Assembly: GCA_009843735.1 (NCBI GenBank)
Contig: VYCW01000045.1
Span: 1 to 32,743, forward strand
Direction of reading: 5' to 3'
Origin: Acidimicrobiaceae bacterium
Lineage (GTDB): Bacteria; Actinomycetota; Acidimicrobiia; Acidimicrobiales; Aldehydirespiratoraceae
DNA length: 32,743 bases
The position numbers and the translations under genes are program-made. Below are positions 11,166-23,941 of the stretch, one piece after another. A model generated the notes under the pieces. The model was given only the letters and a program-made list of their open reading frames with translations. It made no database searches and was not told where the DNA came from. Each line of letters starts with the position of its first letter. Position 1 is the stretch's first letter.

Positions 11166-12478
11166 GCGCCGGCGGGCGCGGCACCGGCGGGGGCGGCGCC
11201 AGCAGCACTGACACCAACGAGTCGCTCTTCGATAGGGCCCAGCGGGTGATCCCCGGCGGGGTGAACTCCCCGGTGCGGGCCTTCCGGTCGGTGGGGGGCA
11301 CGCCCTACTTCGTGGCTGAGGCGTCCGGACCCTTCGTGTTCGACGTGGAGGGGCGCCGCTACATCGACTACGTGCAGAGCTACGGGCCGGGAATCTGCGG
11401 CCACGCCCACCCTGCGGTGGTCGAGGCGGTGCAGGGGGCCGCGGGGCGGGGCACCAGTTACGGCGCGCCCACCCGCAACGAGGTGCTGATGGCCGAGGAG
11501 ATGTCGGCCCGGGTGGAGGGTCTGGAGATGGTGCGGCTGACCAACAGCGGCACCGAGGCGGTGATGTCGGCGGTGCGGCTGGCCCGGGGCGTGACCGGCC
11601 GCCCAACGGTGGTGAAGTTCGCCGGCTGCTACCACGGTCACAGCGACGCGCTGCTGGTGGCGGGAGGCTCGGGCGTGGCCCAGCAGGGTCTGGCCGGATC
11701 CGAGGGCGTGACGTTGGGCGCGGTGGCCGACACCATCGTGGCCCCCTACAACGTGGTCCCCGAACTCGACGAGTCGGTAGCGGTGGTGTGCGTCGAGCCG
11801 GTGGCGGCCAACATGGGCTTGGTGGCGCCACAGCCAGGATTCCTGCAGGGTTTGCGGGAGGCCTGCGACGCGGTCGGTGCCCTGCTGCTGTTCGACGAGG
11901 TGATAACTGGTTTCCGCCTGTGCCGGGGCGGGGCGGCGCAGTGGTTCGGTGTGCAGCCCGACGTCTGGTGCTTCGGCAAAGTCATCGGCGGTGGGCTGCC
12001 CATCGGCGCCTTCGGTGCGTCCACCGGGATCATGTCCGGGCTCGCTCCCCTGGGGGGCGTGTACCAGGCCGGCACCCTGTCGGGCAATCCCCTGGCCACC
12101 GCGGCCGGCCTGGCCACGCTGGGTTTGCTCGACGACGATGCCTACCGGCAGCTGGAGGCCACCGCGGTGGCGCTGCAGGAGGGGCTGGAGGGCGCCTTCT
12201 CGGCGGCGGGGGTGACCGCGGTGGTGCCGAGGGTGGGCCCGCTGCTGGGCCTGTTCTTCGCCGAGGATGCCCCGTCCGACTTCGACGAGGCCCGCAAGGC
12301 TGCCGATAACGGCTGTTATCGGCAGTTCTTCCACGGGATGCTGCGCCGGGACGTGGCCTTCGCGCCGGGCGCCTACGAGGCGATCTTCCCCTCCCTAGCC
12401 CACACCGAAGCCGAGATCGAGACCACTGTGGCCGCCGCCGCCGAAACCGCAATGGAGATGAGAGACGGCTCAGGATGA
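11162..12478 (+). CDS. hemL: Glutamate-1-semialdehyde 2,1-aminomutase
   Basis: The protein has 438 residues. RVIPGGVNSPVRAFRSVGGT is the classic HemL N-terminal motif. RLTNSGTEAVMSAVRLARG and FAGCYHGHSDALLVAGGSG bind the PLP phosphate. LLLFDEVITGFRL carries the Asp that contacts the PLP ring nitrogen, and Lys273 in CFGKVIGGGLPIGAFG is the Schiff-base lysine. It converts glutamate-1-semialdehyde to 5-aminolevulinate, completing the C5 route begun by HemA. The first 20 residues are Gly/Ser-rich and poorly conserved. The start overlaps the hemB stop and the end overlaps the yceI-type gene, so the run is translationally coupled. Confidence 0.96.
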   Translation: MSAGGRGTGGGGASSTDTNESLFDRAQRVIPGGVNSPVRAFRSVGGTPYFVAEASGPFVFDVEGRRYIDYVQSYGPGICGHAHPAVVEAVQGAAGRGTSYGAPTRNEVLMAEEMSARVEGLEMVRLTNSGTEAVMSAVRLARGVTGRPTVVKFAGCYHGHSDALLVAGGSGVAQQGLAGSEGVTLGAVADTIVAPYNVVPELDESVAVVCVEPVAANMGLVAPQPGFLQGLREACDAVGALLLFDEVITGFRLCRGGAAQWFGVQPDVWCFGKVIGGGLPIGAFGASTGIMSGLAPLGGVYQAGTLSGNPLATAAGLATLGLLDDDAYRQLEATAVALQEGLEGAFSAAGVTAVVPRVGPLLGLFFAEDAPSDFDEARKAADNGCYRQFFHGMLRRDVAFAPGAYEAIFPSLAHTEAEIETTVAAAAETAMEMRDGSG

Positions 12479-13407
12479 TGCGGCGCGTGAAGATCATCAT
12501 CGGGGCGATTGTCGCCGTGGTCGTGCTGGCTGTGGCGGCAGTGGCGGTGTATCTCCTGACCCGGGGCGAGGCTCCAGAGGCTGTCGATCTGGAGACGACG
12601 GTGGCCCGGATCGAAGCGGCCGAGACCACTGGTGACAGCCTCGATGAGCCGGCGGACACGGACTCCGCGGGCGACGGCACCTCCGAGCCGGCAACCGGCG
12701 CATCCACTGACGATGCCGGGGACGTGGACGTCGCATCGAGCGACTCGCCGGACGAGGCCGTCACCACATCGAACATCGTCGTGGATGAGGGCACGACATC
12801 AACCGACGAAGGGACGGCAGCGGCGGACCAGACGGTTGACGGCGCGGCGGACCTTGCCGGAGTATGGAACGTGGAGGTAGCCGAGAACCCCGGTGACCTG
12901 CAGGGTGAGCCCACCGTGAGCTTCGCCGGCTTCCGGGTGGACGAGGTGCTCAATAACATCGGCGACTTCACGGCGGTGGGCCGCACCGCGAGGGTTTCGG
13001 GCTCGATCGAGCTGAGCGACACCGCGCTAGTGGCCGCGACCGTCGAGGTGCAGATGGGCACGCTCCAGACCGACAGCAGCTTCCGTGACGGCAGGATCTA
13101 CCAGGCTCTCAACACCAGCGAGTTTCCGCTGGCCACCTTCACGCTGGCCGAACCGGTGGAGTTGCCCGCGGGGATGGCGGACGGCGAGGCGTTCTCAGGA
13201 TCGGCCGAGGGGGATCTCACCATCAAGGGCGTCACCAACCGGGTCGCGTTCGACCTGCAGGCTCAGCTGGTCGGCGACCGGATCGTGGCCGTCGGATCCA
13301 GCGCGGTTGTCTTCAGCGACTACGGCGTCACCGCCCCGACCGCCCCGATCGTCGTCTCGGTCGAGGACAACGGCATCATGGAGTTCCAGCTGCTGTTCAC
13401 CCGCTGA
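12475..13407 (+). CDS. Membrane-anchored YceI-family protein
   Basis: The protein has 310 residues. An N-terminal transmembrane segment spans about residues 6-28 after MMRRVK. An acidic Ser/Thr/Asp-rich linker follows to about residue 125. A YceI-like lipocalin-type domain fills the rest: GVWNVEVAENPGDL, FAGFRVDEVLNNIGDFTAVG, a DSSFRDGRIYQALNTSEFP segment, and the LTIKGVTNRVAFDLQAQLVG signature. YceI domains bind isoprenoid-type or other lipids, and the actual role varies. The topology puts the domain outside the membrane. ATGATG gives two possible starts, at 12475 and 12478; the gene overlaps the hemL stop, so it ends the haem operon. Whether it serves haem or quinone handling is unknown. 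Confidence 0.88.
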   Translation: MMRRVKIIIGAIVAVVVLAVAAVAVYLLTRGEAPEAVDLETTVARIEAAETTGDSLDEPADTDSAGDGTSEPATGASTDDAGDVDVASSDSPDEAVTTSNIVVDEGTTSTDEGTAAADQTVDGAADLAGVWNVEVAENPGDLQGEPTVSFAGFRVDEVLNNIGDFTAVGRTARVSGSIELSDTALVAATVEVQMGTLQTDSSFRDGRIYQALNTSEFPLATFTLAEPVELPAGMADGEAFSGSAEGDLTIKGVTNRVAFDLQAQLVGDRIVAVGSSAVVFSDYGVTAPTAPIVVSVEDNGIMEFQLLFTR

Positions 13408-13434
13408 TGACGGGAGTTAGCGGCGATCAGCGGG
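13400..13434. terminator. Convergent hairpin between the yceI-type and binding-protein genes
   Basis: A perfect 9-bp inverted repeat, CCCGCTGAT at 13400-13408 and ATCAGCGGG at 13426-13434, has a 17-base loop. It spans the stop codons of both converging genes. No T tract follows on either side, so it may be a bidirectional terminator or an mRNA-end stabiliser. Confidence 0.4.
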
Positions 13435-14509
13435 CGGGTGGGGCGTAGATGAGCCCGCCGTCGCGCCAGCTGGCGTTGGGAGAGCCCTCCCTTGTCAACC
13501 CGACCGGTACGAGGTGGCGTTCGAAGATCTCGTCGTAGTTGCCGACCTGGCGAATCGCTTGATGGAAGGCGTCGGGAGCCAACCCCATCCCGGTCTGCAG
13601 CTCGCCCTCGCCGCCCAGCAGCCGTTGAGCCTCCGCGTCGGGCGGGTCGGCGGCCATCCCGTCGACGTTGGCCGAGGTGATGCCCTTCTCGTCGGCGATG
13701 ATGGTGGCGTACACGACCCAGTCGATCACGTCGCCCCAGGCCGGGTCGCCTTGTGCGTACACCGGGGCCAGCGGCTCCTTGGAGATGGGAGCGGGCGGGA
13801 AGATCACCCACTCCTGATCATCGGGCTGGACGGTGTTCTTGCGGGCCGCCAGACCCGAGCCGTCGCCGGTGACGACGTCGCAGGCCTTCGCCACGAAGTT
13901 CTCTATCACGATGTCGTGATTCTCGAAGGTGTTGAGGGTGATCTCCGCTCCAGCCGCCACAGCGGCATCGGCGATGTTGCGTTCGGTGGTGGTGCCCGCA
14001 TTCGCACAGACCACCGCCCCGTCGACGTCGGCCACCGTCGACGACGGGGTGTAGCCGTCTTCGGCCCGGGCCATCAGTCGCTGGCCGTCGTAGTAGATGA
14101 CCGGACCGAAGTCCACGCCGAGGTGGGTGTCGCGGGTCTGGGTGTGGGTGGCGGTGCGGAACAGCACGTCCACTGCGCCCGTCTGCACGGCGGCAATGCG
14201 CTCGGCGGAGGTCAGCGTCACGAACTCGACCGCGTCGGCGTCACCGAGAACCGCTGCGGCCACCGCCCGGCAGTAGTCGGCGTCGAACCCCCGCTGGGAT
14301 CCGTCGGCCTGGGTGTACGAGAACCCGACAGCGGTGCCCGACACTCCACAGACCAGGTGCCCCCGGTCGCGGACCGTCTCGAGCAGTCCGACACCGGATT
14401 CAGACTCGTCGACCGTGCCCGCGGAGCCGCTGCACGCCGACACCGCCACGGCCACAGCAGCAACCGCCACCAGCACAGGCCGCACCGCTCGATCATTCCA
14501 TCGTCTCAC
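13427..14509 (-). CDS. Amino-acid ABC transporter substrate-binding lipoprotein (AapJ-type), orphan
   Basis: The protein has 360 residues. The N-terminus is VRRWNDRAVRPVLVAVAAVA followed by a lipobox ending VSAC, so it is a lipid-anchored extracellular protein. The mature part begins GVGLLETVRDRGHLVCGVSG and continues GSQRGFDADYCRAVAAAVLG, TLTSAERIAAVQTGAVDVLF and DFGPVIYYDGQRLMA. This is the pattern of polar amino-acid binding proteins of the AapJ/BztA group. The GTG at 14509 is chosen because TAGCGT lies 7 bases upstream; an ATG at 14551 is the longer alternative. No permease or ATPase gene is in the window, so the partner transporter must lie elsewhere. Confidence 0.87.
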   Translation of the reverse strand: MRRWNDRAVRPVLVAVAAVAVAVSACSGSAGTVDESESGVGLLETVRDRGHLVCGVSGTAVGFSYTQADGSQRGFDADYCRAVAAAVLGDADAVEFVTLTSAERIAAVQTGAVDVLFRTATHTQTRDTHLGVDFGPVIYYDGQRLMARAEDGYTPSSTVADVDGAVVCANAGTTTERNIADAAVAAGAEITLNTFENHDIVIENFVAKACDVVTGDGSGLAARKNTVQPDDQEWVIFPPAPISKEPLAPVYAQGDPAWGDVIDWVVYATIIADEKGITSANVDGMAADPPDAEAQRLLGGEGELQTGMGLAPDAFHQAIRQVGNYDEIFERHLVPVGLTREGSPNASWRDGGLIYAPPAR

Positions 14510-14516
14510 GAAGACC

Positions 14517-14522
14517 ACGCTA
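14517..14522 (-). promoter_or_regulatory. Candidate -10 box for the binding-protein gene
   Basis: On the minus strand this reads TAGCGT, 7 bases before the GTG at 14509, again consistent with a leaderless mRNA. Confidence 0.4.
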
Positions 14523-14551
14523 GTGAGATGTCCGCTAGCGAGGCGATTCAT

Positions 14552-15787
14552 TCAGGTCCGCAGGATCGGGTTGCGCTGTGACTGGACTCGAGCATCAGAC
14601 TGTGAGCGGCTGTTATGCCCGTTCGGGCGGTTGGCGACAGGCCGGAATCGGGGTTGTGTCGACGGGCGCGAGGGCGGGCGGAGGCTGAGTTTGCCGCCAT
14701 CGGAGTGCAGTTGCCAGCCGTCGTCGTGGACGAGGTGGTGGCAGGCCTCGCACAGCAGGCACAGGTTGTCGATGTCGGTGGGACCGCCGCTGGCGAACCA
14801 TTCGATGTGGTGGGGTTCGCCCCCTTCGGCGGGAGCCGCGCAGTTGACGCAGCCGCCGTCACGGGCGGCCAGCACCGTCCGCTGGCCGGCGCTTGCGTGG
14901 CGTTGGGCTCGTCCGAGCCACAGGGGGTCGCCGTCGGTGTTGAAGACAGCGGGCAGGATCTTGGCTTCTGCGGCCAGGTGGGCGATCTGGTCGGCGGCGA
15001 CGGGCAGGCCGTCGTCGTAGCGCAGGTTGCGCAGCTCGCAGGACACCGTGTCGTAGTCGGCGATGACCAGCAGCGTGACGTCGGGACGGCGGTGGGGGCC
15101 TTCGCCGGTGATTAGGTTGGCCAGCGCATCGGCTCGGCGCTGCTGTGAGGTCACCCGCTCGTGGGCTTGTTCGCCGTTGCGGTAGTTGCGCACCATGGCG
15201 TTGAAGGCCAGGCTGACACGCTTGCCGTTGTCGGCGTCGAAGTAGGCCGACAGCCGCCACGACCCGTCGGGATCCTGAACCATCGACGCCCACCGGTTCT
15301 CGTGCTGGCGATTGCGTTCCTCCGATGAGGTGCCGGGCTTCATGTAGTGGCGGGTCATGCGGGCGAACATGTCGACGGGGTAGCCGCGGGCCATCTCCAG
15401 CAGCGCCGGCTCGTCGACGTGGTCGGGGTCCGCGCCCACCCGGGCGATAACCCGGGCGTGACCGGCGGTGACCTCGCCGGCGCGCCAAGCCCTCAGCGTC
15501 GACGGGAAGTCTGACAGAGAGGCGGCCAGCGCGACCTCCGCGGTGGCCTGGCGGGACGACACATGCAGCCGCTCGCGCATCATCGCGGCCGTGGCCCGCC
15601 CACCCGAGCGCCGCTGCATCTCCGCGGCGGTCTCCGCCAGCATCGCGTCCACCCGAGACCGCTCCCGACCCAGCAACGTCATCCGCTCCACCAACTCACC
15701 ATCGCTGAGCCCTGAGACCTCGACATCGCCAGCACACCCCACACATCCGGCGTCGGTGACCTCAGCTGATTCGATCCTCGATTCCAT
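14552..15787 (-). CDS. DUF222 / HNH endonuclease (13E12-repeat family)
   Basis: The protein has 411 residues. The N-terminal 250 or so match the DUF222 helical region (ELVERMTLLGRERSRVDAML, RLHVSSRQATAEVALAASL, WRAGEVTAGHARVIARV). The C-terminal HNH nuclease core reads CVNCAAPAEGGEPHHIEWFA and then IDNLCLLCEACHHLVHDDGW, giving the zinc-binding CxxC pairs and the H-H-I catalytic region. These genes are common, often multicopy, in actinobacteria, and their function is uncertain. The ATG at 15787 is preferred because TAGTGT lies 7 bases upstream; an in-frame GTG at 15796 is possible but overlaps that box. The region is divergent from the DUF6361 operon. The promoter sits inside a 9-bp inverted repeat. 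Confidence 0.9.
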   Translation of the reverse strand: MESRIESAEVTDAGCVGCAGDVEVSGLSDGELVERMTLLGRERSRVDAMLAETAAEMQRRSGGRATAAMMRERLHVSSRQATAEVALAASLSDFPSTLRAWRAGEVTAGHARVIARVGADPDHVDEPALLEMARGYPVDMFARMTRHYMKPGTSSEERNRQHENRWASMVQDPDGSWRLSAYFDADNGKRVSLAFNAMVRNYRNGEQAHERVTSQQRRADALANLITGEGPHRRPDVTLLVIADYDTVSCELRNLRYDDGLPVAADQIAHLAAEAKILPAVFNTDGDPLWLGRAQRHASAGQRTVLAARDGGCVNCAAPAEGGEPHHIEWFASGGPTDIDNLCLLCEACHHLVHDDGWQLHSDGGKLSLRPPSRPSTQPRFRPVANRPNGHNSRSQSDARVQSQRNPILRT

Positions 15788-15789
15788 GC

Positions 15790-15817
15790 CTGTCACACTA
15801 GACAGGGGGTGTGACAG
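15790..15817. promoter_or_regulatory. 9-bp perfect inverted repeat over the HNH-gene -10 box
   Basis: CTGTCACAC at 15790-15798 and GTGTGACAG at 15809-15817 are exact inverted repeats with a 10-base spacer. The minus-strand -10 box TAGTGT (15795-15800) lies within the left arm and the spacer. The position fits an operator that would block transcription of the HNH gene, or an RNA hairpin. Confidence 0.55.
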
Positions 15818-15908
15818 ACTCCTATGAACAGGGATGAAACATCATAATAACAACTATTCTTGGCAGTTCCTGCCCCGCGTGTCGCATGTCAGTGCTTGAC
15901 TCGAGCCG
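15818..15908 (+). promoter_or_regulatory. AT-rich leader of the DUF6361-PLD-helicase operon
   Basis: The gap upstream of 15909 contains an AT-rich patch around 15838-15862 that contrasts with its GC-rich surroundings. TATTCT at 15855-15860 fits a -10 box and would give a leader of about 40 bases. TTGACT at 15896-15901 stands at the leaderless -10 position but is a poor match. No Shine-Dalgarno sequence is seen before the ATG at 15909. Confidence 0.35.
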
Positions 15909-17138
15909 ATGAACGACTACGCCCCGGCCTCATCGCTGGGCTGGCTCGACCTCGACACCGCCGCCAGTGAGCGGGTGGCTTCTCTGCTGCGCTCGCTTGA
16001 GGAGCCAGGCACCATAGACGCTCTGGGCCTCGGGTCAATTCGCGACACCTTCTCAGACATGCTCACCCCGGGGACCTCGACCGTGCAGACCAGGCTGCGC
16101 TACTTCATCTTCCTGCCGTGGATCTTCCAACGTCTGGAGACCGAGGGTGTTCCGCCCGCCAGCTTCGCCCGCAAGCTCCGCGACTACGAGGCCAAACTCA
16201 TCGACTGCCTCCGTCACCTAGGGCCGAACCAGGGTGTCATCGGCCGGATCGCCGGCCGCAGTCTCCGGCGGATGCCGAGCGACGTCTACTGGGGCAGCAT
16301 GACGGCCTGGGGCATTAGGCGACTCGACCTGAGCATTGCTGAGTACGGCCAGCAGGCGAGAGCGCGGGGCCGGTTCCGGCCCGAACGCGACGACGACGGA
16401 AACGCGACCGAACCGGCAGGATCGATATGGGCCTCTGTTCCTGAAGCGCCCGAGAACTTTCTGACCGGTCAAGTCACCTTCGAACTCGAACCGGATGAGG
16501 CCCAGACGCTGACCGATGGCATCCGACGGCGCCACCCCGACACGCTTATCGCGGCCTTAACGACAGTGAGGGGGTTGTCGCTTGACAACATCGACTACCC
16601 GTGGTTCGTGCCGGTGCCACGACTCCCAGGCCGTCTCGTCGAGATGCTGCACCATGCCCGCTGCTTCTCGGAGCTAACGCACGGGCCACAGTTGGTCTAC
16701 AACCTGCTGCTGGCCCGGGCGGCCAGAAGGGAACTCGGCTGGGACACGGAAGAACTCGAAGAGAACCAGAAGCGGCACCTCGACGGCTGGAGCGACCAGG
16801 TGGGTGGGCGCCATGAGGAACTGCGGGCCTGGGTGGAAGCGCCCCATGAGTTCCGGCAGGTGCTCGCCGGTTACGGCGTCGCCCAGAGCACCCTCCACTA
16901 CTGGGACGCGATGGCCCAACACGCGGTGGATGATCCGGCACGGTTCGCGGAACGCCCCGAGGTACACCGACTCATCCGCGACCGAGAACGGCGGCTCAAG
17001 TCGAAACGGGCTCGACTGTCGCACCGGGCCGCGCTGGAGACTTGGAACCAGATGCCGTTCGGAGGTCAACTCGACTATCGGTGGGGCATCACCAAGACCT
17101 ACCTCCGGGACCTGGCAGCGGCCGGAGTGGGGGGCTGA
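15909..17138 (+). CDS. DUF6361-family protein, first gene of a putative defence operon
   Basis: The protein has 409 residues. The start LGWLDLDTAASERVASLLRS, then GLGSIRDTFSDMLTPGTSTV and QTRLRYFIFLPWIFQRLE, match what I recall of DUF6361 proteins, a family of unknown function. I see no membrane helix, signal peptide or Walker motif. The C-terminus is rich in Arg/Lys (residues about 355-380, RDRERRLKSKRARLSHRAAL), which could contact nucleic acid. The ATG at 15909 gives the expected family start. Its stop TGA shares a base with the ATG of the PLD gene. The context of a PLD-type nuclease and a helicase suggests a DNA-acting complex, possibly with this protein as a sensor or scaffold; that role is inference. 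Confidence 0.75.
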   Translation: MNDYAPASSLGWLDLDTAASERVASLLRSLEEPGTIDALGLGSIRDTFSDMLTPGTSTVQTRLRYFIFLPWIFQRLETEGVPPASFARKLRDYEAKLIDCLRHLGPNQGVIGRIAGRSLRRMPSDVYWGSMTAWGIRRLDLSIAEYGQQARARGRFRPERDDDGNATEPAGSIWASVPEAPENFLTGQVTFELEPDEAQTLTDGIRRRHPDTLIAALTTVRGLSLDNIDYPWFVPVPRLPGRLVEMLHHARCFSELTHGPQLVYNLLLARAARRELGWDTEELEENQKRHLDGWSDQVGGRHEELRAWVEAPHEFRQVLAGYGVAQSTLHYWDAMAQHAVDDPARFAERPEVHRLIRDRERRLKSKRARLSHRAALETWNQMPFGGQLDYRWGITKTYLRDLAAAGVGG

Positions 17139-18949
17139 TGCTGCAACCTGCCAACCGTCTGACCTTGATCGACTCCATGCGGCCCCCGGCGGGGTTCCGC
17201 TTCGAATCGGCCATGGCCGTGACATACACCCTCGACCTGCGGGCCTTGCTGGCCGCGCCCGCGGCCCTGGCGCTCGCGGGTCGTGGCACCGCCTCTGAGG
17301 ACGACCGCGACGCCTACCAGCCCATCGAGTTGATCCATGCCCTGCGGGCTCACGCGGACAGAATGACGGTGTTCAGTCAGGTCGGTGAGATCGCCCTAGC
17401 GCCATCGCGCCGGGCGTTCGCCTTCCTGGAACGCACCGTTCTACCGGTGTCGGCGCCGAGAGGTGGCATCGTGCATCCCAAAGTGTGGGTGATTCGCTAC
17501 GAGACGGCCGGAGATCCGGCGGACGGGCAGGCAGTCGAGCAGCGGCTCCGGGTGCTTATCGCCAGCCGCAACCTCACCTTCGATGCGAGCTGGGACACGA
17601 TGGTGCGCCTCGACGAGACCAACAGATCGGGCGGAGCGACCCTGCGACCAGTAGGCGAGCTGTTCACAACTCTTCTCAGCCGTTGCGCGGTAGACGCCCC
17701 AGAGGACCACCTTGCGCGAGTCCAATCACTGGCCACCGCTCTCCAAGACGCTCTGTTCGCCCTGCCTGCGGGCGTGGACGATCTCGAGGTCCATGTCCTC
17801 GGTCTGGAACCCAAGCCGTCGCCTCTGCCGAGCGATGCCGAGCGATCGCTGATCATCTCGCCATTCGTCAGCGACAACTTCTTCACCAGTGCGCACCCGT
17901 TCAAGATCGACGAGTTGGTCAGCAGCCCGGAGTGGCTCGACCGCCTCGACGAGGACTCACTGGCCAAGGTGGGCAAGGCACACGCATTCGACGACGGGAG
18001 TGCCACGGACATCGACTCCGAAAGCGACAAGCGGTCGCCCTTCGACCCTGGTCGGCCGCTCGTTGGGCTTCATGCCAAGGTCTTCGCCTTCGAGGACAAG
18101 GGCCGGGCCCGGCTGTATCTCGGGTCGGCCAACGCCACCGGCCCCGCGTTCGGCAGCAATGTCGAGATCCTCGTGGAGTTGACCGGGTCAACCGATGTGC
18201 TCGGGATCGACCGGTTGTGCCAGGGCAGCGATGACGAGCCGGGTTTGCGCGACCTCTTCTACGATTACCGCAGGTCGTGCACTGACGATGGATCCTCCAG
18301 CGAACCATCGATCGACCACTGGCGACAGATCATCGCACGGCTCCCTCTTGAGGGCCGTGTCACCGAGAGCAGTGAAGGCTGGGCAGTTACCTACCGGACG
18401 ACCGAGCCGATGCCCAAGCCCAACGACGCGACCATTCACTGCTGGCCGCTCACCGTCGCGGGGAACCGGCGGCAGGTAGTCCCAGGAAGGTCGCTCGAGG
18501 AGCGCTTTGAGACCAGCCTGGAGAACCTCAGCGGTTTCCTCGCCTTCGAGCTGACGCACACCGACGGCGAACTGAGCCGTTTCGTGGTCCCGGTCCCGCT
18601 CACCGGCGTGCCCGAGCAGCGCGACCGGGAGCTATTGAGATCCCTGATCGGGAACGCGGAGCGGTTCTTCCGCTACCTCATGGCGCTGCTGGAAGAGGAC
18701 GCCGGCGAGTCCAGCGTGATCAACACTGTCGAGCGGATAAGCGGCGGCGACCAGAAGGAGGGAGACGGGCCGATCAGTCTTCCGGTGCTGGAGAGGCTGT
18801 TGCGAACCATGCGACGTGAACCCAGCAGGCTGGCAGAACTCCATCCGCTCGTGTCGGACCTGGCCGCCGACGACGCGCTGCCACCGGGCTTCGCCGAGCT
18901 GTGGAAAATGATCCACCAGGTGGCAACCACAGGTGGACCGACGCAGTGA
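17138..18949 (+). CDS. Phospholipase-D-like (two HKD motifs) protein of the putative defence operon
   Basis: The protein has 603 residues. Two HxK half-sites are visible. The first is H113-P-K115 in GGIVHPKVWVIRY, followed by IASRNLTFDASWDTMVRLD with Asn145. The second is H312-A-K314 in GLHAKVFAFEDKGRARLYLG, followed by G329-S-A-N332. Together they give the bilobal PLD active site, used by phosphodiesterases and by nucleases in restriction-type systems. The C-terminal 270 residues have no motif I know. There is no signal peptide, so it is likely cytoplasmic and more likely a nuclease than a lipase. The ATG at 17138 (MLQPANRLTLIDSMRPP) overlaps the upstream stop by one base. A longer frame from 17042 is a shadow of the DUF6361 gene. 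The stop overlaps the helicase GTG by 4 bases. Confidence 0.85.
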   Translation: MLQPANRLTLIDSMRPPAGFRFESAMAVTYTLDLRALLAAPAALALAGRGTASEDDRDAYQPIELIHALRAHADRMTVFSQVGEIALAPSRRAFAFLERTVLPVSAPRGGIVHPKVWVIRYETAGDPADGQAVEQRLRVLIASRNLTFDASWDTMVRLDETNRSGGATLRPVGELFTTLLSRCAVDAPEDHLARVQSLATALQDALFALPAGVDDLEVHVLGLEPKPSPLPSDAERSLIISPFVSDNFFTSAHPFKIDELVSSPEWLDRLDEDSLAKVGKAHAFDDGSATDIDSESDKRSPFDPGRPLVGLHAKVFAFEDKGRARLYLGSANATGPAFGSNVEILVELTGSTDVLGIDRLCQGSDDEPGLRDLFYDYRRSCTDDGSSSEPSIDHWRQIIARLPLEGRVTESSEGWAVTYRTTEPMPKPNDATIHCWPLTVAGNRRQVVPGRSLEERFETSLENLSGFLAFELTHTDGELSRFVVPVPLTGVPEQRDRELLRSLIGNAERFFRYLMALLEEDAGESSVINTVERISGGDQKEGDGPISLPVLERLLRTMRREPSRLAELHPLVSDLAADDALPPGFAELWKMIHQVATTGGPTQ

Positions 18950-21900
18950 GCGGACAGGCCATCAACGCCGAGGCGGTACTCGCCGATCTGAAGGACTTCC
19001 AGCGACGAACCGCTCGCTGGGCCTTCGAGCGGATGTTCGCCGACGACGACCCGGCGATCCGGTTCCTGGTGGCCGACGAGGTCGGCCTAGGCAAGACACA
19101 CGTTGCCAAGGGCGTGATTGCCCAGGTCATCGAACACCTCGGGCGCACCGGCGACGAGCGTCACGACATCGTCTACGTCTGCTCCAACGGGGCCATCGCC
19201 CGGCAGAACCTCCGCAAGCTCGCCCCCAGGGGAATCGAGCCGGTAGCGAGGGTCGATCGGCTCACGATGCTGCCGCTGGCCGAGCTCGACGACGGAGACG
19301 AGACGCGCACCGGCATCAACCTGCTGGCGATCACGCCGGGCACGTCCTTGAAGTTCGGCCGCAGTACAGGCACGTTCCCCGAGCGATGTCTGGCCTACAC
19401 ATTCCTGCGAGGCCATTGGGGGGCGAACGCAATGAGCCGATCGCCGGCCAAGCGCATCTTCTGGGAGGGCCTCCGGTCCGGCAGCCGACGCGACCGGAAC
19501 AGGTGGGTAAGGGAATGGGAAGGGTGGTATCGCCCCCAGATCGAAGGATCGCTCGGGCACTTCGGCATGCGGCTCGAGCAAGCGGACCGAGCCCGGATAG
19601 CAGAAGGCCGACCCTGTCTCCAGACCCTGTTCGAGGAACTCGTCGACGGGCTGGCGTACAAGCGGAGAATCCCTTACAAACTGCATCGACGTCGCCAGGA
19701 ATTCGTGGGCGAAGTCCGTCGCGTGATGGCACTGGTGGGCATCGACGCGCTCTGTCCTGACCTAGTGGTGCTCGACGAGTTCCAGCGGTTCAAGGACTTG
19801 CTGCAGCCCGAGCCCGAGAATCTGGCGGCAGAACTGGCCCAGCGACTCTTCGACTACCGAGATCCTGACACCGGGCGGCCAACGCGGACGCTGCTACTGT
19901 CGGCGACCCCGTACCGCATGTACACCACCTCGGGTGAGCTCGAGGGCGATCACTACAAGGACTTCCTCGACACCTGCTCGTTCCTGTTCGGGAACCCGGC
20001 CCGGGTCGAGCGGCTCCAAGATCGGTTCAGGCAGCTGCGTACCGCGCTCACGGCACGGGACTCGCTCGACCGGGCCACCGAGATCTGCGGCGCAATCGGG
20101 TCTGATCTGCGCGCCGTGATGGCCCGGACCGAACGGCTGGCGGCGACCCCGGACCGCGACGGCATGCTCAACGAGACGGAGACCTACGCGGCGGTGAGCT
20201 CTGAAGACCTATGCGCCTACGTGCGCATCGGCGGCCTGGCCGAAGCGGTGGCGCACCACGAACCGACGGAGTACTGGAAGTCGGCGCCCTACCTCGTCAA
20301 CTTCATGGAGGCGTACAAGCTGAAGCAAGCCGTGGCGGAGGCGGCGGAGCACGGGCTTCTCGACGGCGAGGAGCTCGATCCCGGCCCCGGCCTGCTGAGC
20401 TGGGACGACGTCGAGGCCTACCGGCAGATCGACCCCCAAAACGCACGGCTGCGCTGGCTGCTGGGCGACCTGGAGCGTCGGCGCGCCTTCGAGCTCCTGT
20501 GGGTGCCCGCGTCAATGAGGTACTACGACGCCGGGTCGGTGTACGAGTCGCCCGAGGCCGCAGGGTTTACGAAGCGGCTCATCTTCTCAGGCTGGACGGT
20601 CGTGCCCAAAGTCGTCTCCTCGCTGGTGAGCTTCGAGGCCGAGCGCCATGCCTTCATCGATCGCGATCACAACTACACGGCCGACTACGCGCGCCGGGGC
20701 GGCGGCCGGCTGGATCTTCGGACAGCTGCACGCGCAAGTGACGAGGCCCGGGCGGGTGAAGCGCCAGAGGCCCGACGGGCGGCGGCGATGACAGCATTCA
20801 TCCTTACCTGGCCGAGCCCGCTCCTGGCCGAACTCGGCGACCCCAGGCCCAGGACACCCGACCAATCAACCCACGCGCCGCTCGCCGCAGCTTCGCGGCT
20901 ACCGGTTCAGCCGACCGGGACGCGGGTCCGAGCCCCTGAGCTCTTGACCATGGTCAAGACCCGGGTGGCCGCGGCGCTTGAGCGGATCATGGAGTCGGCA
21001 CCAACCGCCGGTGTCATCGACCATCGTTGGTACTGGGCCGCGCCCGTACTCCTCGACAAAGAGTTCCACCCGACGGCCATCGAGATCCTGCTTGGCCCCG
21101 ACGGCGCGTACTACCTAGGCGGCGGCAGCCCCGACGGACAAGGACTGAACGCCCACATGGCTGAGGCGCAAGCGATGCTCGACAGCGGCGTAGAGGCTCT
21201 CGGCCGTCCACCCGACGACCTCATCGAGGTGCTCGCCGAACTCGCCGTGGGCGGGCCGGCGCAATGCGCGCTCCGAGCCATTAGCTCGGTAGTGGGTCTC
21301 CCAATCTCCCACGATGGCGTTCTAGCCAACGCGGCATGGGCGGGTGCAGCGTTCCGCGACTTCTTCAATGCCCCCGAGACGACCGCGGTCGTCGTGCGCG
21401 GCGCGCCCGACGCTGATGGGCACGAGGGCGCCGCCCGCTACTGGCAGGAGGTGCTGCGGCACTGCATCGACGGCAATTTGCAGTCAGTGCTCGACGAGCA
21501 CAGCCATGTGCTGCGCGACTGGCTCGGATTCCTGAGCCTGGACACCGAGGACCAGCGGCAAGCGGCCGCGGACGACATCGCGTACAGGCTCGCTGACGCC
21601 CTGGACCTGCGCACCTCGTCGTATCGCGTGGACATCCCCGGTCGAGAGCGCGACGGTCGGGGCGTCGAACTGCACCCACACCGGATGCGGTCACGATTCG
21701 CGGTCGCCTTCGGCCACCAGAGCCTCGACGAGGGCGGCGAGGCCCGGATCGAGGCCGTTTCGAAGGCGTTCAACTCGCCATTCTGGCCCTTTGTGCTGAC
21801 CTCGACGTCGATCGGGCAGGAAGGACTGGACTTCCACCTCTGGTGCCACGCGATCGTCCATTGGAACCTGCCCTCCAACCCGGTCGACCTTGAGCAGCGC

Positions 21901-22299
21901 GAGGGCAGGGTCCACCGCTACAAGGGCCACGCGGTGCGGCGCAACATCGCCGCGACCCTGGGGCCGGACCTGCTTGCCGGAGGACTAGACGCCGATGCCG
22001 ACCCCTGGACTGTTCTTCATGACCTTGCGGTCGCCACACGAGACGCTGACGACGACGAGATGGTGCCCTACTGGGTGTTCCACCAGGGTCCCGCGAGGAT
22101 CGAGCGCCATGTGCCGGTCATGCCGTTCAGCCAGGAGGCGGCAGCTCTGCCGAAGCTGCGAAGGACCCTCGCCGCGTATCGCCTCGCCTTCGGTCAACCC
22201 CGCCAGGAGGAGTTGGTCGAGTTGTTGGGCGAGCTCGCGTCCGACGAACAGTTGCAGCAGCTCCGCATCGACCTGTCGCCTCCGAGCTCGAAGAGCTGA
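18946..22299 (+). CDS. SF2 (DEAD/SNF2-like) helicase of the putative defence operon
   Basis: The protein has 1117 residues. Motif I (Walker A) is VADEVGLGKTH at residues 43-52, motif II LDEFQRF around 276-282 and motif III LLLSATPYRM around 316-325. The second RecA lobe has LTSTSIGQEGLDFHLWCHA at 951-969 and motif VI, QREGRVHR, at 984-991. Over 600 residues separate the two lobes, a large insertion for substrate contacts or partners. The DEFQ box and SNF2-like GLGKT suggest a translocase. The GTG at 18946 is chosen because it overlaps the PLD stop (GTGA); an in-frame GTG at 18901 is less likely. It ends the three-gene run, convergent with pgi. Confidence 0.88.
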   Translation: MSGQAINAEAVLADLKDFQRRTARWAFERMFADDDPAIRFLVADEVGLGKTHVAKGVIAQVIEHLGRTGDERHDIVYVCSNGAIARQNLRKLAPRGIEPVARVDRLTMLPLAELDDGDETRTGINLLAITPGTSLKFGRSTGTFPERCLAYTFLRGHWGANAMSRSPAKRIFWEGLRSGSRRDRNRWVREWEGWYRPQIEGSLGHFGMRLEQADRARIAEGRPCLQTLFEELVDGLAYKRRIPYKLHRRRQEFVGEVRRVMALVGIDALCPDLVVLDEFQRFKDLLQPEPENLAAELAQRLFDYRDPDTGRPTRTLLLSATPYRMYTTSGELEGDHYKDFLDTCSFLFGNPARVERLQDRFRQLRTALTARDSLDRATEICGAIGSDLRAVMARTERLAATPDRDGMLNETETYAAVSSEDLCAYVRIGGLAEAVAHHEPTEYWKSAPYLVNFMEAYKLKQAVAEAAEHGLLDGEELDPGPGLLSWDDVEAYRQIDPQNARLRWLLGDLERRRAFELLWVPASMRYYDAGSVYESPEAAGFTKRLIFSGWTVVPKVVSSLVSFEAERHAFIDRDHNYTADYARRGGGRLDLRTAARASDEARAGEAPEARRAAAMTAFILTWPSPLLAELGDPRPRTPDQSTHAPLAAASRLPVQPTGTRVRAPELLTMVKTRVAAALERIMESAPTAGVIDHRWYWAAPVLLDKEFHPTAIEILLGPDGAYYLGGGSPDGQGLNAHMAEAQAMLDSGVEALGRPPDDLIEVLAELAVGGPAQCALRAISSVVGLPISHDGVLANAAWAGAAFRDFFNAPETTAVVVRGAPDADGHEGAARYWQEVLRHCIDGNLQSVLDEHSHVLRDWLGFLSLDTEDQRQAAADDIAYRLADALDLRTSSYRVDIPGRERDGRGVELHPHRMRSRFAVAFGHQSLDEGGEARIEAVSKAFNSPFWPFVLTSTSIGQEGLDFHLWCHAIVHWNLPSNPVDLEQREGRVHRYKGHAVRRNIAATLGPDLLAGGLDADADPWTVLHDLAVATRDADDDEMVPYWVFHQGPARIERHVPVMPFSQEAAALPKLRRTLAAYRLAFGQPRQEELVELLGELASDEQLQQLRIDLSPPSSKS

Positions 22300-22313
22300 C
22301 GGCGGGACGTCAG
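22296..22313. terminator. Convergent hairpin between helicase and pgi genes
   Basis: CTGACG (22296-22301) and CGTCAG (22308-22313) form a 6-bp perfect inverted repeat with a 6-base loop. It includes both converging stop codons. No T tract is present. Confidence 0.35.
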
Positions 22314-23941
22314 TCGTTGGTGGCCCGCAGGCGGTGGTAGTGGGCGATCAGGGACTCGGTGGCGGGGTCGTGTTCGCTCGCTGACCGCGACGAGCCCTCG
22401 CTTAGGTCCCCGGTTATGGCGTCGGCGAGGGTCTTTCCGTGCTCCACGCCGAACTGGTCGAAGCTGTTGATGCCCCACAGCGCGCCCTGCACCAGCACCT
22501 CGTGCTCGTAGAGGGCCACCAGCTGACCCAGCACTGACGGCGTCAGCTCGGGAGCCATGATCACCGTGGACGGGCGATTGCCGGGGAGCTCACGATGAGG
22601 ATCGTCCGACGGCATCCCGAAGGCCAGCGCGGCCGCCTGGGCGAAGCAGTTGGCAACCAGTGACTCGTGCTGGCGCCCAGCCTCCGGGAGATGGGCGGTA
22701 TCGACGTCGGGACGGGCGAACACGATGAAGTCGGCTGGAACCACCGTCGTGCCCTGGTGCAGGAACTGGTGAAAGGAGTGCTGGCTGTCGGTACCGGTGC
22801 CGCCCCATACGACCTCACCGGTGTCGCAGCCAACCGGGTTGCCGTCGAGCCGGACCCGCTTGCCGTTGGACTCCATCACCACCTGCTGCAGCCAGCTCCC
22901 GAAGCTTCGCAGCCGGTGCGAGTACGGCACCACCGCCCGCGACTGCAGACCCCAGAAGTTGCGATACCACACCCCCAACAACCCCATCAACACCGGGGCG
23001 TTGGCCACCGGCGGCTGCTGGACAAGATGCTCGTCGACGGCCCGCATCCCGGCCAGCATCTCGCCGAACCGTTCCTCACCGATGGCGAGCATGAGCGACA
23101 GTCCCGCCGCCGAGCCCAGCGAGTACCGGCCACCCACCCAGTCCCACACCCTGAAGACGTCGCCGGCCCGCACACCGAACTCAGTCGCCGCGGCGGCATT
23201 CGCGGTCGCCGCGGCGAAGTGGTGATCCGCCGCGTCCGGCCCCAGCGCCGCGCTCAGCCAGGCCCGGGCCGCCCGGGCGTTGGCCAGCGTCTCAGGAGTG
23301 CCGAAGCTCTTGGACACCACCACGAAGAGCGTCTCCGCCGGGTCCAGCCCGTCATCCAGCACCGTCGCCAAGTCGGCCGGGTCGACATTGGACACGAAGC
23401 GGCACTCGACGCCCGGGCGCCGGAAGGCGGCCAACGCCTCATGGGCCATGGCCAGGCCCAGATATGACCCGCCGATCCCGAGGTTCACCACAGTGCGGAT
23501 CGGCCGGCCCGTCGCGCCCCGCCGCTCACCGGACAGCACGGCACGAGCGAAGCCGGCCATGCGGTTCAGTTCTGCGCTCACCGCGGTCGTCACATCGACA
23601 TCACCAACCACCACCGAGGCGCCGGGACCGGCCCGGAGTGCGGTGTGCAACGCGGGCCGGCCCTCGGTGGCGTTCACCGGATCGCCCGCCATCGTGGCCG
23701 CGATCCGCTCGCTCACCCCCGCACGGTCGGCCAGAGCCAGCAGCAACTCGACTGTCTCGGCGGTCACAAGGTGACGGGAACAGTCGATCACCAAGTCGCC
23801 CGCGGTCAACGCGAGACGCCCAACCCGACCCGGATCAACCGAAAACAGCTCCCGCAGGTGCACACCACCCGCTTGCAGCTCGCGGGCGTGACGGGCCAGC
23901 GCGGTCCACTCCGCGGCGGCGGTGATGTCGGTAGAGGCCAC
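22310..23941 (-). CDS. pgi: Glucose-6-phosphate isomerase
   Basis: The protein has 543 residues, normal for bacterial PGI. VVNLGIGGSYLGLAMAHEAL binds the sugar phosphate and FVVVSKSFGTPETLANARAA is the SIS-type Ser/Thr loop. VVPYSHRLRSFGSWLQQVVM followed by ESNGK is PGI signature 1, and GALWGINSFDQFGVEHGK is signature 2 with the catalytic region. It interconverts glucose-6- and fructose-6-phosphate in the cytoplasm. The start is a GTG at 23941, 29 bases after the cytochrome gene stop, so it may be co-transcribed with that gene. Nothing links it functionally to the sox genes. Confidence 0.95.
   Translation of the reverse strand: MASTDITAAAEWTALARHARELQAGGVHLRELFSVDPGRVGRLALTAGDLVIDCSRHLVTAETVELLLALADRAGVSERIAATMAGDPVNATEGRPALHTALRAGPGASVVVGDVDVTTAVSAELNRMAGFARAVLSGERRGATGRPIRTVVNLGIGGSYLGLAMAHEALAAFRRPGVECRFVSNVDPADLATVLDDGLDPAETLFVVVSKSFGTPETLANARAARAWLSAALGPDAADHHFAAATANAAAATEFGVRAGDVFRVWDWVGGRYSLGSAAGLSLMLAIGEERFGEMLAGMRAVDEHLVQQPPVANAPVLMGLLGVWYRNFWGLQSRAVVPYSHRLRSFGSWLQQVVMESNGKRVRLDGNPVGCDTGEVVWGGTGTDSQHSFHQFLHQGTTVVPADFIVFARPDVDTAHLPEAGRQHESLVANCFAQAAALAFGMPSDDPHRELPGNRPSTVIMAPELTPSVLGQLVALYEHEVLVQGALWGINSFDQFGVEHGKTLADAITGDLSEGSSRSASEHDPATESLIAHYHRLRATND

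Follow-up and report, generated by a model that had tools for sequence, protein, structure and literature searches.

Do three overlapping genes for a DUF6361 protein, a phospholipase D (PLD)-type nuclease, and a large superfamily 2 (SF2) helicase form a defence system, and is that system a new one? The question is raised by contig VYCW01000045.1 of an Acidimicrobiaceae bacterium, of which 32,743 nucleotides were analysed (hereafter, the window) and in which a first-pass annotation had proposed an undescribed nuclease-helicase operon. By profile comparison, the trio is a member of the candidate defence system ZacABC, which is already catalogued in PADLOC-DB, and we use its gene names. The open reading frames are uninterrupted on the plus strand at 15909-22299 and overlap by 1 and 4 bases, in agreement with the first-pass annotation:

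15909-17138, plus strand: zacA (DUF6361), 409 amino acids
17138-18949, plus strand: zacB (PLD/HKD nuclease), 603 amino acids
18946-22299, plus strand: zacC (Swi2/Snf2-like SF2 ATPase, predicted), 1117 amino acids, GTG start

Each protein matched one of the ZacABC models of PADLOC-DB 2.0.0 (i.e., PDLC03828, PDLC03829, and PDLC03830) over nearly its full length: ZacA with 343.4 bits (residues 8-405; profile positions 3-393 of 396), ZacB with 480.5 bits (residues 1-597; positions 1-582 of 586), and ZacC with 1008 bits (residues 7-1112; positions 5-1016 of 1019). The genes are also adjacent, on one strand, and in the order found in relatives (adjacency is our own reading of the ZacABC system). On the basis of these matches, we assign the trio to ZacABC, from which no difference was detected, and the description "undescribed", which was to hold unless the trio proved identical to a named system, is withdrawn. 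In Pfam, the trio matched DUF6361 (PF19888; 165.5 bits), the family originally named for the first gene, and Helicase_C (27.9 bits); PLDc_2 in ZacB (19.8 bits) and DEAD in ZacC (22.5 bits) scored below the cut-off, and no NCBIfam family exceeded its own cut-off for any of the three proteins. No paper naming ZacABC or DUF6361 was found among open-licence PMC papers, and one may be in print elsewhere. The origin of the name Zac was not traceable (the archaeal survey PMC12988326 does not contain "zac" anywhere in its main text).

Restriction by an HKD nuclease combined with a Swi2/Snf2 or SF2 motor is well established, the examples being SauUSI, NgoAVII, and CglI (passages of PMC7913695). According to these passages, SauUSI is a single 953-residue chain with an HKD nuclease, an SF2 ATPase, and an SRA domain, and its active site is built from the HxK motifs of two protomers (the text mentions 7CLG); NgoAVII and CglI carry the HKD nuclease and the SF2 ATPase on separate subunits, as does ZacABC. 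SauUSI (type IV; 7clg) shares the HKD nuclease and SF2 motor with ZacABC, whereas the latter comprises three genes and has both half-sites in one chain. No SRA domain was matched by Pfam in the trio (E value of ≤0.01), which separates it from single-chain SauUSI-type enzymes. Large-helicase or HKD and SF2 logic is also shared, as far as passages of the sources go, with DruE of Druantia and with PbeA and BREX-related type 2, of which the last two are proposed HKD and SF2 systems (passages of PMC10853773 and PMC12839542); the window trio matched none of the defining proteins of these three systems.

DISARM likewise combines an HKD nuclease with a Swi2/Snf2-type helicase, and the C-terminal lobe of ZacC resembles DrmD (43.1 bits). 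DISARM was nevertheless ruled out. No DrmB-type (DUF1998/MZB) match occurred in the trio or in six scanned neighbours, which bears out the original remark that other DISARM parts are absent; DrmA was matched just by the C-terminal lobe of ZacC (33.5 bits), leaving the DrmA and DrmB combination unfound; and ZacB scored 14.8 bits against DrmC versus 480.5 against the ZacB model, too weak for a DrmC assignment. Mokosh was also rejected, as no MkoA or MkoB model matched the trio at an E value of ≤0.01 in a complete listing.

The catalytic motifs of ZacB and ZacC, together with the lobe-2 insert of ZacC, are as follows:

17474-17572, plus strand: ZacB half-site 1 (H113, K115, N145); H, K, R144, and N invariant in 61 sequences
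18071-18133, plus strand: ZacB half-site 2 (H312, K314, S330, N332); invariant in 61 sequences
19075-19098, plus strand: ZacC Walker A (DEVGLGKT); invariant in 54 sequences
19774-19785, plus strand: ZacC motif II (DEFQ); invariant in 54 sequences
20656-21747, plus strand: ZacC lobe-2 insert (residues ~571-934); mostly helical
21805-21918, plus strand: ZacC motifs V-VI (TSIGQEGLDF ... EQREGRVHR); core residues invariant in 54 sequences

Both HxK half-sites recognised earlier in the PLD protein are thus present and kept in the 61 aligned sequences, in which G329 is likewise invariant and S143 of the first half-site is conserved in 91%. Among PDB sequences, the ZacB profile matched 7clg best (6.2e-07 over 57 positions), with BfiI (2c1l) at 0.029. 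The reading of the third protein as a 1117-residue SF2 helicase also stands, given that its motifs, including SAT, are invariant in 54 sequences. Walker A and DEFQ are 226 residues apart, SAT (motif III) and the motif IV strand 221, and motifs IV and V 404 (550 to 954), where motif IV is our own assignment (placed on a conserved strand, model residues 543-547). Since the widest gap is that between motifs IV and V, the largest insert lies inside lobe 2; a large insertion had been predicted correctly, but not its position between the lobes. In Foldseek, the ZacC model (pLDDT of 83.8) matched Rad54 (2.2e-05) and RapA (9.0e-04) at TM-scores of just 0.20-0.34; the profile matched RapA at 2.3e-06. 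ZacC is a predicted Swi2/Snf2-like ATPase. Relative to its three nearest relatives, it is least conserved at residues 601-720 (47-57% identity); averaged over 149 near pairs, residues 661-760 were lowest (50.3%), with 141-270 (57.1%) and 871-934 (59.4%) close behind. ZacA is all-helical in its AlphaFold2 model (72 sequences; pLDDT of 89.0, pTM of 0.85), which had no PDB fold match at an E value of ≤0.001 in Foldseek (best E value of 0.48, TM-score of 0.10), and no PDB sequence matched ZacA up to an E value of 1.

The three genes occur together across bacteria and archaea. A scan of 84,980 GTDB species genomes yielded 534 pattern stretches and 490 tblastn-confirmed ZacA relatives, and 80 loci were kept (loci carry L numbers below, and genomes G numbers). 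Full-length A, B, and C were called in 63 of the 80, ten were cut by a contig end, and in seven a gene call was short or absent (L045, L047, L072, L073, L077, L083, and L089); tblastn recovered B and C on the same strand and in the same order in all seven. ZacA was found in 45 of 72,556 plasmid records (one archaeal). Among 50,697 phage records, one (a faecal contig, unverified) contained the trio beside a type I restriction subunit. All six plasmid and phage loci examined carry A, B, and C. A pattern scan of viral contigs gave five matches, none of them a relative, and a 3996-base piece of the Cronobacter homologue had no blastn match in E. coli, where diverged copies are still possible. The pairwise identities of the three proteins are correlated (r = 0.955 to 0.982; 70 sets). 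Judged by this survey, zacA, zacB, and zacC travel as one unit.

Short or broken zacB or zacC genes were seen in L071, L077, L083, and L089, as expected of a dispensable accessory system; in L071, counted as contig cut, zacB is shortened and the next gene is called on the opposite strand.

Within the genus, the unit occupies a variable chromosomal site:

12475-13407, plus strand: yceI-like gene, border of the variable site
13427-14551, minus strand: solute-binding protein gene, cargo of the same site
14552-15796, minus strand: DUF222-HNH gene, neighbouring cargo, probably outside the ZacABC system
22310-23941, minus strand: pgi gene, other border of the variable site

Of the 100 genomes searched, 11 have ZacA: that of the window itself, 8 of 15 further members of the genus, and 2 of 35 from elsewhere in the family; it was found in 0 of 49 from elsewhere in the order. 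The yceI-like and pgi genes enclose zac on one contig in the window, G001, G003, G007, G011, and G012, and the site is split or contig cut in G002, G013, and G015. Six of the seven zac-less genus members show the site without zac: G006, G009, and G014 have no gene called between the two borders, and G005, G008, and G010 have other cargo there, which in G010 is solely the solute-binding protein gene; G004 has no pgi match. The genes are therefore not conserved core genes of this locus, an alternative that the first-pass annotation had kept in view. The two nearest genomes by pgi, G008 (85%) and G010 (84%), both lack zac. G015 shares 70% (pgi) and 67% (yceI) protein identity with the window and 91, 88, and 79% for ZacA, ZacB, and ZacC; blastn aligned 15910-17274 at 92.2% and 17319-20655 at 92.5%. 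Zac DNA at ~92% beside a pgi protein at ~70% points to horizontal movement. In 300-base blocks over 15901-20700, 14 of 16 were 89.3-96.0% identical to G015 and the other two 77.5 and 81.0%; further 3', identity was 57-66% (20701-21600) and 75-78% (21601-22200). We read this comparison, from the alignments, as a transfer with a mosaic 3' part of zacC.

Relative to G015 (L026), zacC itself is a mosaic, near-identical in its 5' half and strongly diverged from the lobe-2 insert on (20656-22299). The HNH gene, correctly reported as adjoining the operon, was considered as a fourth component and rejected, since it lies beside zac in some genus members and is missing there in G011 and G015.

Upstream, the operon has its own leader:

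15797-15908, plus strand: AT-rich operon leader, 112 bases, 50.9% G+C versus 69.7% for the window

This leader had been noted before and is unusual (0.3% of 112-base stretches in the window have as low a G+C content); a promoter scan found no sigma-70-type match on its plus strand. The convergent hairpin at which the operon was thought to end did not survive inspection. The inverted repeat at ~22295-22312 is a 6-base-pair stem, comparable stems occur at 4.55 per kb across the window, and a terminator scan reported nothing at the zacC 3' end; thus, there is no evidence of a terminator.

Elsewhere, zac repeatedly adjoins large helicase or nuclease genes. Directly upstream of zacA, genes for an AddB-like PD-(D/E)XK protein and a UvrD-like helicase lie in 9 of 86 loci, with gaps of 4-115 bases (L034, L035, L036, L074, L080, L082, L083, L095, and L100; all alphaproteobacteria; the AddB-like call of L083 is short). 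L092 has only the UvrD-like gene, at the start of a contig; in L115, 1.3 kb separate the pair from a cut zacA downstream of it; in L090, a pair lies on the opposite strand; and similar pairs adjoin zac in L064, L069, and L075. Pfam is the basis for L035, L064, L075, and the first genes of L069 and L090. The four AddB-like proteins tested (L035, L036, L069, and L075) had no PADLOC match. Three of the 86 loci carry a DruE-like helicase gene (1550-1786 residues) that ends 11, 50, and 14 bases before zacA, respectively:

L066:2507-7867: DruE-like gene in a methanogen genome
L069:3065-8365: DruE-like gene in an Anaerolineae genome
L118:85-4737: DruE-like gene in a Clostridiales genome

Their best DruE model scores were 417-606 bits. 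DruE models also matched in 12 of 14 control genomes, so that presence alone is uninformative and we relied on adjacency and high whole-protein scores. The three loci lie on separate tree branches (branch support values were not considered). The gene upstream of the DruE-like gene has TPR-type PDB matches in L069 and no PDB match in L066. The joining of DruE and zac is unmentioned in section 5 and further passages of the YprA-family preprint PMC12458937.

What might ZacABC do? Defence is very likely its function, and it is likely an ATP-dependent HKD nuclease, as far as motifs and analogy indicate. For the reading as a whole, we lean toward a mobile three-gene candidate defence module whose split ATP-dependent HKD nuclease would destroy foreign DNA. 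The Swi2/Snf2-like ATPase ZacC would move along duplex DNA; ZacB, an HKD endonuclease with two half-sites in one chain, would cut it; and the helical ZacA would bind ZacB and ZacC as an adaptor or sensor. The result would be ATP-dependent destruction of foreign DNA in the manner of SauUSI or NgoAVII/CglI. Because no methyltransferase is a constant partner, the choice between self and nonself would probably depend on how the incoming DNA is marked or on its state, with no dedicated protective mark; modification- or state-dependent targeting as such is put forward tentatively. Complex formation, translocation, cleavage, the recognised feature, and phage protection are what we infer. The nuclease-helicase complex acting on foreign DNA that was proposed at the outset thus keeps its substance, if not its novelty: conserved catalytic motifs, a constant unit, a patchy occurrence in which some sites are empty, transfer between genus members, and restriction genes among sampled neighbours elsewhere all agree with it.

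The last of these comes from a survey of 64 of the 86 loci; left out were the majority of the window-like loci from Acidimicrobiia and three plasmid loci of the AddAB type. Eligible neighbours (at least 200 amino acids, within 5 kb) were available in 61 loci; the nearest per side was taken, and AddB-, UvrD-, and DruE-like repeats were reduced to one each, which left 100 proteins. These matched 180 PADLOC models at an E value of 1e-10 (a single helicase can match several models). Among the matches listed (25 models) were type I restriction and methyltransferase models (at most three proteins each), type IV, PbeA, and HNH (three each), and DpdF, DruE, PsyrT, and TmtA (two each); among the Pfam matches listed were ResIII (five), PDDEXK_1 (four), N6_Mtase and phage integrase (three each), and the ArdC N-terminal domain and RepB (two each). 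The control, 98 pgi neighbours from 27 of 28 of the same genomes, matched 48 models, and no restriction enzyme was among the control matches listed (25 of the 48 models).

AAA_14/DUF4143 ATPase genes were also observed just downstream of zacC (L018:2579-3727 and L028:10758-12011 by Pfam; L043:6983-8128 and L054:16749-17888 by tblastn), and that of L028 is the PADLOC candidate PDC-S01.

Several points weigh against the defence reading. The control was not free of PADLOC matches: PD-T4-6 (to 4.3e-75), mad6 (1.1e-63), and MkoA (2.7e-38) were matched by one protein each, and RtcR-type regulators (three proteins), mad2, and mad3 were listed as well (the PD-T4-6 protein matches many models); most control matches are presumably to generic kinases, regulators, and ATPases. 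Moreover, the comparison counts model matches rather than proteins and sets 38,650 control residues against 49,782, which, with 25 models listed on either side, makes the contrast qualitative. In the window, the six flanking genes scanned (~19 further called genes lay outside the scan) include no clear defence gene, with a lone stray PADLOC match of 11 bits, and in G001, where the same site holds extra cargo, the seven cargo proteins that were scanned are of biosynthetic or transport types (a desaturase, a GlnD-like protein, a polyprenyl synthetase, two ABC transporters [one with a C39 peptidase], YcaO, and an FAD protein). When the nearest neighbours of the three proteins are compared, they coincide in just 26, 33, and 35 of 70 sets, which speaks against strict coinheritance at a fine scale. 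ZacA could not be linked through its predicted model to any known fold, and mutual binding of A, B, and C, like action of ZacB on DNA, would go beyond what conservation of sequence and motifs conveys.

A defence island in the window was accordingly rejected for the six genes scanned, and mad3 and mad8 matches in the G001 cargo, being to ABC-type ATPases, were counted as generic. The YcaO, C39-peptidase ABC transporter, desaturase, and polyprenyl synthetase genes of G001 (L013:10010-18510 and L014:711-4338) are perhaps a modified-peptide cluster.

Methyltransferase genes beside zac in some relatives also count against this reading, and they lead to its nearest alternative. In L035, zacC is followed directly by a type III-like methyltransferase gene; in G007 and G015, the gene immediately before zacA encodes a D12-class methyltransferase:

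L018:10786-11622: D12-class methyltransferase gene (Pfam)
L026:1910-2746: D12-class methyltransferase gene (tblastn, as L039:9028-9861)

Classical restriction-modification is therefore possible in part of the family. In its strict form, ZacABC would restrict while a linked or unlinked host methyltransferase protected self, as for NgoAVII and CglI, which also pair HKD nuclease and SF2 ATPase subunits (passages of PMC7913695). Type I methyltransferase models were matched by 3 of the 100 nearest neighbours. We consider this form unlikely for ZacABC, though worth keeping in mind, given that a methyltransferase is not a constant partner (N6_Mtase was matched by 3 of the 100 nearest neighbours, and the scanned window neighbours include no methyltransferase). 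A motif screen for methyltransferases, which flagged 10 of 86 loci, was discarded as a count because it was unreliable in both directions: the D12 genes of L039 and L052 escaped it, and it picked up apparent cytochrome genes in L040-L042.

That no self-protection gene is constant would also suit an abortive or suicide mechanism, in which infection makes ZacA release ZacBC, host and phage DNA are degraded, and the cell dies. Such a mechanism has been proposed for HKD and SF2 effectors (passages of PMC10853773); the AddAB-like pairing fits DNA degradation at least equally, and we regard cell suicide as rather improbable. The AddAB-like helicase-nuclease family also serves repair, and the structural matches of ZacC are to Rad54 and RapA, which together would fit a mobile DNA repair or genome-maintenance complex related to RapA/Rad54-like remodelling. 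This explanation is very unlikely, given that zac occurs patchily, with empty sites, is carried on plasmids and transferred horizontally, is broken in some relatives, and has restriction genes among its neighbours.

For the ZacABC family, direct adjacency to AddAB-like or DruE-like genes suggests that zacABC may be a modular core. A bolder and doubtful extension is that it would be a portable three-subunit nuclease core repeatedly plugged into larger AddAB-like or DruE-like machines; the composite operons would then be undescribed types in which ZacA would be the subunit held in common, for docking or sensing, and the variable lobe-2 insert of ZacC would recognise the target. With the trio of the window, one candidate is struck from the list of undescribed systems and receives an exact identity. 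In turn, a catalogued and apparently uncharacterised system gains a testable anatomy (i.e., conserved active sites, a ZacA subunit without a PDB fold match, a variable motor insert, and recurrent AddAB-like and DruE-like partners), and these partners of zacABC could connect separate defence families.

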